Below are positions 51,959 through 52,778 of a stretch of 64,000 nucleotides of DNA, piece by piece. The DNA is from Clostridia bacterium. GTDB lineage: Bacteria > Bacillota > Clostridia > Christensenellales > Borkfalkiaceae. Location: assembly GCA_017399945.1 (NCBI GenBank), contig JAFQAQ010000003.1:62001-126000 (forward strand). The letters run 5' to 3'. Below the pieces are notes generated by a model. It ran no database searches, was not told the DNA's origin, and saw only the letters and a list, made by a program, of their open reading frames with translations. The position numbers and the translations under genes were made by a program. How positions within the stretch are numbered: the stretch's first letter is position 1; every line of letters starts with the position of its first letter.

Positions 51959-52270
51959 TTATTTGTGTGCGATAACGCCGATAAGGTTAGAATAGGTGTC
52001 CGGGAAGAATAGGAATACCACGATTATTGCACATAGAATAAGGAATATTAACTTAAAAATAAAGTTGCGTTTAGACATTGCTTCAAGCCCAACTACGCCT
52101 ATTAGTACTAACGAGCCGTACGTTCTTAAAATATCAAAGATTTTTAGCACGGTTACGTTACCGATAAAGTTAAAGTTAGCGTTAAGAATTAGCAACGCGT
52201 AAACTACCACTAAAACCACGGCGAGAATTTCGCCTATGATATCCCAAATTTTTTCCATTACTTTAGACAT
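51959..52270 (-). CDS. Small three-span membrane protein
   Basis: A 103-residue protein with three hydrophobic spans (about 12-31, 50-68 and 73-92). No family is recognised. The spans are short and typical of small envelope or transport accessory proteins. TATAGGAG lies before the ATG. A probable structured RNA with a terminator lies upstream on the same strand (52330-52607), so its expression may depend on that element. Confidence 0.55.
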   Translation of the reverse strand: MSKVMEKIWDIIGEILAVVLVVVYALLILNANFNFIGNVTVLKIFDILRTYGSLVLIGVVGLEAMSKRNFIFKLIFLILCAIIVVFLFFPDTYSNLIGVIAHK

Positions 52271-52329
52271 TTTCTTTTTTTCTCCTATATATTAACGGAT
52301 TTCCGTTTTTCTTGGCGTTATCATTTATA

Positions 52330-52607
52330 AAGGTCGGGTAAACCACCCGACCTAGTATTTATTATTTAATTTTGGCTTGCCGACACTTGCCGAGAGTTGG
52401 TAGCCATATTATTACTTACTATTCCCTCAGGAACTAAATATACCACTCGGACTACTTAAAGCAAGCAGATAAACTGTTGATTGGTGGATACCTCCGTTAT
52501 TTATTTGTTGGGTTAACTAGTACATTGGACCGTCTCCTTATAATTTATTTGGTGTGGAGAACAACTCTGTTCATTGGTCCAACCCTCCTTGACTTAGTTT
52601 TATTTTC
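52330..52607 (-). ncRNA. Candidate structured RNA or leader, unidentified
   Basis: On the minus strand a consensus promoter (52614-52642) is followed by about 278 nt with no long ORF and many paired arms. TTGGACC (52576-52582) pairs with GGTCCAA (52525-52531), with AACCC/GGGTT (52581-52585, 52510-52514) next to it. TTCC/GGAA flanks a loop at 52422-52433. GGCT/AGCC (52374-52377, 52402-52405) encloses a tandem repeat of CTTGCCGA. A terminator-like hairpin GGTCGGGT/ACCCGACC (52332-52352) closes it. Three direct repeats of GGAG...CCAAT occur at 52573-52588, 52524-52537 and 52480-52495. It matches no riboswitch, 6S, tmRNA or T-box that I can recognise. Confidence 0.5.
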
Positions 52608-52613
52608 AATTAC

Positions 52614-52642
52614 ATTTTAATATAGCCTATAAAACTTGTCAA
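52614..52642 (-). promoter_or_regulatory. Promoter of the candidate RNA
   Basis: On the minus strand TTGACA (52637-52642) and TAAAAT (52614-52619) are exactly 17 nt apart. Confidence 0.75.
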
Positions 52643-52778
52643 TACGATTTTAAAAAATTTTGATAATTTTATTTTTTAAAAACCCCTTGAAATTTGTTTT
52701 CAAATATGAGAAAATAAAAGGGTGGGGAGTATAGGTGATAAACTCCCCCGTTTTTGTTAAATTTTAGGAGCAAGTAAA

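Follow-up and report, generated by a model that had tools for sequence, protein, structure and literature searches.

The window analysed here is a 64,000-nt stretch of a Clostridia bacterium genome, and an intergenic region on its minus strand, at about 52642-52331, holds an RNA of roughly 277 nt between a promoter and the end of a hairpin. A preliminary description made from the letters had proposed a structured RNA at this place, either an independent non-coding RNA or a riboswitch-like leader of the small membrane-protein gene that follows. Its promoter was borne out, with TTGACA-17-TAAAAT (52642..52614) scoring highest in the region, and so was its GC-rich hairpin at 52353-52331. The features, including those derived from the class A homologues described below, are as follows.

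52614..52642, minus: sigma-70 type promoter TTGACA-17-TAAAAT, 11/12 matches; at the same place in class A homologues
52331..52607, minus: the RNA, with a predicted start about 7 nt past the -10 box, ending with the terminator-like hairpin; homologues L002/L047, L044/L050, L049, L051, L052, L057, L061 and truncated L003
52572..52590, minus: box 1, AAGGAGG-GTTGGACCA-ATG; anti-SD pairing -11.7 kcal/mol; conserved
52545..52574, minus: tiny frame 1, predicted MNRVVLHTK*; MNRFLHTKK*, MNRRIQTKK*, MNFILHKK*, MCIVLHNK* and MFVVLHNK* in relatives
52523..52539, minus: box 2, AAGGAGACGGTCCAATG; anti-SD pairing -12.3 kcal/mol; conserved
52517..52525, minus: frame 2, two codons, predicted MY*; relatives have MY*, MFT*, MYK*, MW* or slightly longer frames
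52479..52496, minus: box 3, CGGAGG-TATCCACCA-ATC; anti-SD pairing -12.4 kcal/mol; SD within a hairpin, AUC at the expected start-codon position
52452..52481, minus: possible frame 3 from AUC, (I)NSLSACFK*; weak
52460..52466, minus: P1 5' arm, pairs with 52375-52381; 98% of cells paired, with covarying pairs
52447..52450, minus: P2 5' arm CCGA, pairs with 52390-52393; compensatory change in 3/4 pairs
52441..52444, minus: P3 5' arm GGUA, pairs with 52399-52402; 56% of cells paired
52399..52402, minus: P3 3' arm UACC, partner of the P3 5' arm
52390..52393, minus: P2 3' arm UCGG, partner of the P2 5' arm
52375..52381, minus: P1 3' arm; compensatory variants in L050, L061 and L057
52363..52374, minus: conserved single-stranded 3' motif CAAAAUUAAAUA, CUACAACUUAAUA / AAAACUGAAUA in relatives, from the alignments
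52331..52353, minus: GC-rich terminal hairpin, terminator-like; weak U-tract (TTTATAAAT) in the window copy

The RNA has its own promoter and a terminator, as a dual-function small RNA should. In the window copy the terminal hairpin is missing from the minus-strand list of the terminator scan and its U-tract is weak, whereas several homologues (L049, L051, L052) carry a strong U-tract after it. The single-sequence folding energy of the window RNA is unremarkable (z = -1.42), and the structure was therefore tested by comparison with homologues.

When 61 related genomes were searched at the DNA level, two homologues were convincing: L002, and L003, which is cut short by its contig. Scanning genome contigs for the pattern brought in L044, from a roe deer caecum metagenome-assembled genome (MAG). 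To gather class A, the 5' part was modelled by sequence (R1) and the 3' domain then by covariance (R2), the covariance models being run with short calibrations. Class A comprises nine members in three genera, namely the window RNA, L047 (= L002), L003, L050 (= L044), L049, L051, L052, L057 and L061; as in the other classes described below, all members are MAG sequences, and the counts depend on assembly completeness.

Compensatory changes were found in 10 of the 15 pairs of the class A alignment. In the 3' domain 84% of cells pair. Not one of 500 shuffles attained the covariation score, and the signal was lost when either arm was displaced by 1-3 columns. P1 and P2 are supported in all or nearly all members and P3 in about half. 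The closing helix P1 changes from GCUUGCU/AGCAAGC to GCUUAUC/GAUAAGC (L050), GCCUGC/GCAGGC (L061) and GCUUGU/ACAAGC (L057), while P3, GGUA/UACC in the window, occurs as GGCAC/GUGCU or GGCAG/CUGCC in relatives with slips of register. P3 and the hairpin that holds the last box are not uniform, the latter being poorly formed in L051/L052; in single-sequence folds this hairpin abuts P1. A tandem TCGGCAAG (CTTGCCGA) repeat that had been pointed out is indeed present, but it is not conserved: its two units are the 3' arms of P2 and P1, two different helix arms alike in this species only, and the tandem CTTGCCGA was dropped as a feature.

Promoter and hairpin are kept in class A, and the neighbouring genes differ between groups. 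An amino-acid kinase gene lies upstream of the RNA in L002, L003 and L044, and the window RNA has a divergent flavodiiron-like gene as its neighbour. This bears on the suggestion that the RNA acts in cis on the membrane-protein gene, as its leader or riboswitch. In the window that gene is co-directional and begins 60 nt downstream, no promoter-like site is listed in between, and the weak U-tract would permit read-through; however, no such RNA was found upstream of seven homologues of the gene, and elsewhere the gene that follows the RNA is a different one or, as in L002, convergent. A riboswitch or cis-leader should keep its place ahead of a particular gene or pathway, which is not seen here. 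The non-conserved neighbours make a riboswitch or leader unlikely, and taken with the other findings they contradict this reading, which we regard as highly improbable; synteny with the downstream gene was likewise rejected as a defining feature. The 103-aa membrane protein itself (51959-52270, minus strand) has no Pfam match and is patchy in the genus (8/44 genomes), and transcription from the RNA promoter may run on into its gene, in the window genome only. A phage or plasmid origin was also rejected, as 52326-52650 of the window had no match in phages or plasmids and no exact pattern match was found in viral contigs.

On the opposite strand, a promoter-like site CCCCTTGA...GATAAT stands divergent to the RNA promoter in the class A loci L002, L003, L044 and the window (52660-52770). 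In three of these (L044, L002 and the window) a GC hairpin with a T-run lies within about 15-30 nt past it, an arrangement that would suit a very short divergent transcript.

The preliminary description could match the RNA to no known class and called for a search of Rfam. No Rfam 15 family reached its gathering cut-off on the window RNA, and permissive thresholds on classes A, B and C (the latter two are described below) gave only unrelated chance matches. The covariance model of 6S RNA (RF00013) had no match on the window RNA, and 6S RNA was over the cut-off at separate loci in the class C genomes G315, G217 and G204. No tmRNA was found at the window RNA with ARAGORN or RF00023; tmRNA is a separate gene in the window's genome (G000, C10:105904-106253, 145 bits). 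The raiA motif/ModT (RF03072) had no match up to E 10 on the window RNA, or at E 5 or 1 in further searches of the classes. No description of such an RNA appears in the open-access literature searched, nor in the main text of the RNA-discovery papers and the microbiome-wide survey covered. As a separate observation, 6S RNA was undetected by Rfam in eight class A/B genomes tested, including the window's own, where it may be diverged or lost.

Covariation, the absence of a known class and the unconserved neighbours all favour the earlier proposal of an independent structured non-coding RNA with a promoter. The small RNA gene seen here is real, comes from uncultured gut Clostridia and had not been catalogued before; it belongs to a much wider family that the first reading had missed.

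Three GGAG...CCAAT direct repeats had also been noticed, and all three were recovered, at 52590-52572, 52539-52523 and 52496-52479. We infer from their sequence that they are translation-initiation boxes with tiny reading frames, a relation overlooked before. Their anti-SD energies, computed against a generic 16S tail rather than the organism's own, lie at the top of the window range (median -7.2 and best -12.6 kcal/mol for 45 long ORFs), and three such sites were reached in 1 of 452 window stretches of equal length and in 1 of 500 mononucleotide shuffles. Among the members the consensus reads AAGGRGG, 2-4 variable bases, GWCC, R, AUG, WAC. Among 63 boxes that have a start codon and were collected by hand from members of the family, the second codon is AAC/UAC in 50 and NAY in 57, versus 2 and 6 of 33 long ORFs of the window; because the boxes are mutually related, this bias measures constraint and is not an independent test. 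The GGTCC of box 2 could pair with the GGACC of box 1 in several class A members, but this GGACC/GGUCC helix was not counted as a general feature because it is absent in L051/L052.

What recognises the boxes is suggested by their variation. A/G swaps inside the SD (GGAGG/GGGGG) preserve anti-SD pairing across members, which argues for recognition by ribosomes rather than CsrA; members with a GGGGG box have no GGA there and keep the pairing, and CsrA-type GGA sites were ruled out. The boxes could in principle act on DNA as operator sites of a transcription factor, since they recur in direct orientation at intervals of about 50 bp, close behind a promoter. However, the covarying helices, the anti-SD-compatible A/G swaps, the start codon at a nearly fixed distance and the strand polarity contradict an operator, and we give this reading practically no credence.

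The frames span 2-20 codons across members. In class A box 3 the start position is AUC in 7/8 copies and AUU in 1/8, and AUG in none (0/8). The SD and GACC are retained and the start codon gone not only in this box but also in L063 boxes 1-2 and L175 box 1, so that, as in Stab-SD elements, a strong SD is found that does not need a start codon.

One alternative is that the RNA is a tiny mRNA, with short peptides (MNRVVLHTK, MNSxxEISxHPN...) as its product, the remainder a structured UTR, and the frames a mini-operon whose stops overlap the next SD. Indeed, in L148, L150, L051 and L050 a frame ends with a stop codon that falls within the following box (GGAGGUAUAG), and the frame of the sister class B scores as coding by column permutation (P 0.002-0.004), as does class A frame 3 more weakly (P 0.0065-0.03), both in small, post hoc tests; the GCU UGC codons of this frame 3 are also the 5' arm of P1. 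The corresponding value for frame 1 was not relied on, its row having been trimmed by hand with one lysine codon omitted from L047. On the other hand, the peptides are wholly different between classes and genera, none being common to different classes, and many frames have just 2-3 codons (MY*, MNR*, MH*, MN*). A one-base deletion in L103 shifts the frame amid nucleotides that are otherwise still conserved, some boxes lack a start codon, and the helices covary. We consider the tiny-mRNA reading unlikely.

A second set of RNAs in the same genus, class B, was drawn in by the class A model search. Its members carry a single box, a hairpin whose UAAAGAA loop is invariant, the 3' motif AACUGAAUA and, last, a terminator. 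All 6 pairs of the hairpin covary, changed on both sides, with 29 compensatory cells. The class B model (R3), run against 398 genomes of the family, gave 18 strong matches in the genus (E < 1e-11). Class B lies divergent to a rimK-like ATP-grasp gene, its RimK domain identified by Pfam, in 10/10 loci first examined and in six more genomes. rimK is present in every class A genome and class B is beside it in none, the two classes occur together in none of the genomes examined, and neither form is at the rimK locus in the genus members G015, G062, G024 and G030. In most class A genomes the best match of the class B model is the class A RNA itself (G016 7e-11, G061 6e-7, G065 5e-6). The 3' domains of the two classes align poorly. 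Since the classes are mutually exclusive and their boxes homologous, they are probably alternative forms of one RNA gene.

Weaker matches in other genera of the family, with a layout read by eye, form class C (L142, L144, L148-L151, L153-L164, L166-L168, L170 and L171). The layout runs from a promoter through two or three boxes, with their tiny frames, and a structured part to a AAAACUGAAUA-like motif and a terminator, and one locus each with a similar layout was found in two other families of the order (L175, L178). Model scores for class C and the out-of-family loci are modest (19-33 bits), the case resting on boxes, 3' motif and layout; this layer is therefore a probable rather than proven part of the RNA family. 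Other, weak out-of-family model matches (L177, L179-L186, L188, L189), together with G000:C14:23535, were rejected because they look like ordinary coding sequence, and L176, which has the box pattern, because it seems to head a normal coding gene. The conserved AAAACUGAAUA before the terminator in classes B and C (e.g., L053, L055, L149) resembles the segment after boxA in Firmicutes rRNA operon leaders.

The explanation we favour, and consider fairly likely, is that of a stand-alone RNA of about 280 nt, of an undescribed clostridial-lineage family, with boxes that engage ribosomes, a foldable 3' core and a possible function as a sensor or buffer of initiation. The family, the fold, the stand-alone context and the conservation of the boxes are well supported by the comparisons; ribosome binding at the boxes and translation of the frames are inferred, and the proposed cellular role, sensing or buffering initiation capacity, is speculative. 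Transcription would be driven by the RNA's own promoter and end at the terminal hairpin. In the 5' part, 1-3 copies of the box would bring 30S subunits or ribosomes to frames that are 2-20 codons long, and the 3' part would supply the conserved fold and the constant single-stranded motif just before the terminator. Because the hairpin that contains the last box abuts P1, ribosome loading there and folding would compete. Such an RNA would have two states, ribosome-occupied and folded, and could thereby sense or buffer initiation capacity. Like Stab-SD elements, the boxes may also shield the RNA against 5' exonuclease; in Bacilli, RNA is stabilised by a strong SD even where no start codon follows it (PMC3997798). 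More tentatively, this could be a new class of bacterial RNA, combining repeated standard ribosome-landing boxes with a foldable core, in which ribosome loading is the signal, acting as an initiation sensor or buffer across the lineage; we hold this broader claim as possible rather than probable.

The shielding might also be the whole function, with the boxes serving solely to keep RNase J off a non-coding effector RNA and the frames accidental. Loss of the start codon with the SD kept, in three unrelated places, and the stabilising effect of start-less SDs in Bacilli agree with such a device, but it leaves the strict GWCC-R-AUG-WAC around the start codon and the coding signal unexplained, and we consider it unlikely.

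Several known systems resemble parts of the favoured arrangement. Dual-function small RNAs include B. subtilis SR1, S. aureus RNAIII and E. coli SgrS. Like them, the present RNA stands alone, has a promoter and a terminator, and joins a short SD-led frame to structured non-coding parts; unlike them, it has 1-3 copies of one initiation box, frames of 2-20 codons and some start-less boxes, and no homology to any catalogued RNA was found. The bar minigenes have two codons. Ribosome-dependent attenuator leaders contain uORF motifs (PMC8632094). Tiny frames, SDs overlapping RNA helices and a terminator-like end are shared with such leaders and minigenes, whereas here the RNA is stand-alone, with repeated boxes and no conserved downstream gene. 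The Stab-SD 5' stabilisers (cryIIIA and similar) are part of long mRNAs (PMC3997798). Both have a strong SD close to the 5' end, in some cases with no start codon, but here the SD is repeated, has the extended GWCC-R-AUG-WAC context and belongs to a short structured RNA. The raiA motif/ModT is likewise a conserved stand-alone structured Bacillota RNA with a terminator, of about 215 nt with 8 helices and 2 pseudoknots in the published model; however, its Rfam model has no match here, and repeated SD boxes are unmentioned for raiA in the part of that source covered (PMC11706538).

That Rfam lacks a stand-alone RNA gene which a large lineage of gut bacteria has retained represents a gap in the catalogue of bacterial RNAs. 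Its repeated boxes, with their near-fixed second codon and occasional loss of the start codon, permit a direct test of whether the loading of ribosomes onto an RNA that is no messenger can serve as a regulatory signal or stabiliser, and the covariance models and box consensus enable looking for the RNA in existing metatranscriptomes.

Some further observations concern the surroundings of class B. A sub-threshold match to Gut-1 RNA lies just downstream of one class B RNA (L067:373-445, minus strand; 40.6 bits against a cut-off of 50, E 1.2e-4), and in class B the site corresponding to the divergent promoter-like site of class A faces rimK. Beyond the rimK-like gene, genes that we take from their sequences to be hsp20 and htpG follow in 9/10 loci first examined. 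The constant divergence from rimK, mostly within an htpG-hsp20-rimK cluster (e.g., L093, L089, L091), may hint at a link to heat or ribosome stress.
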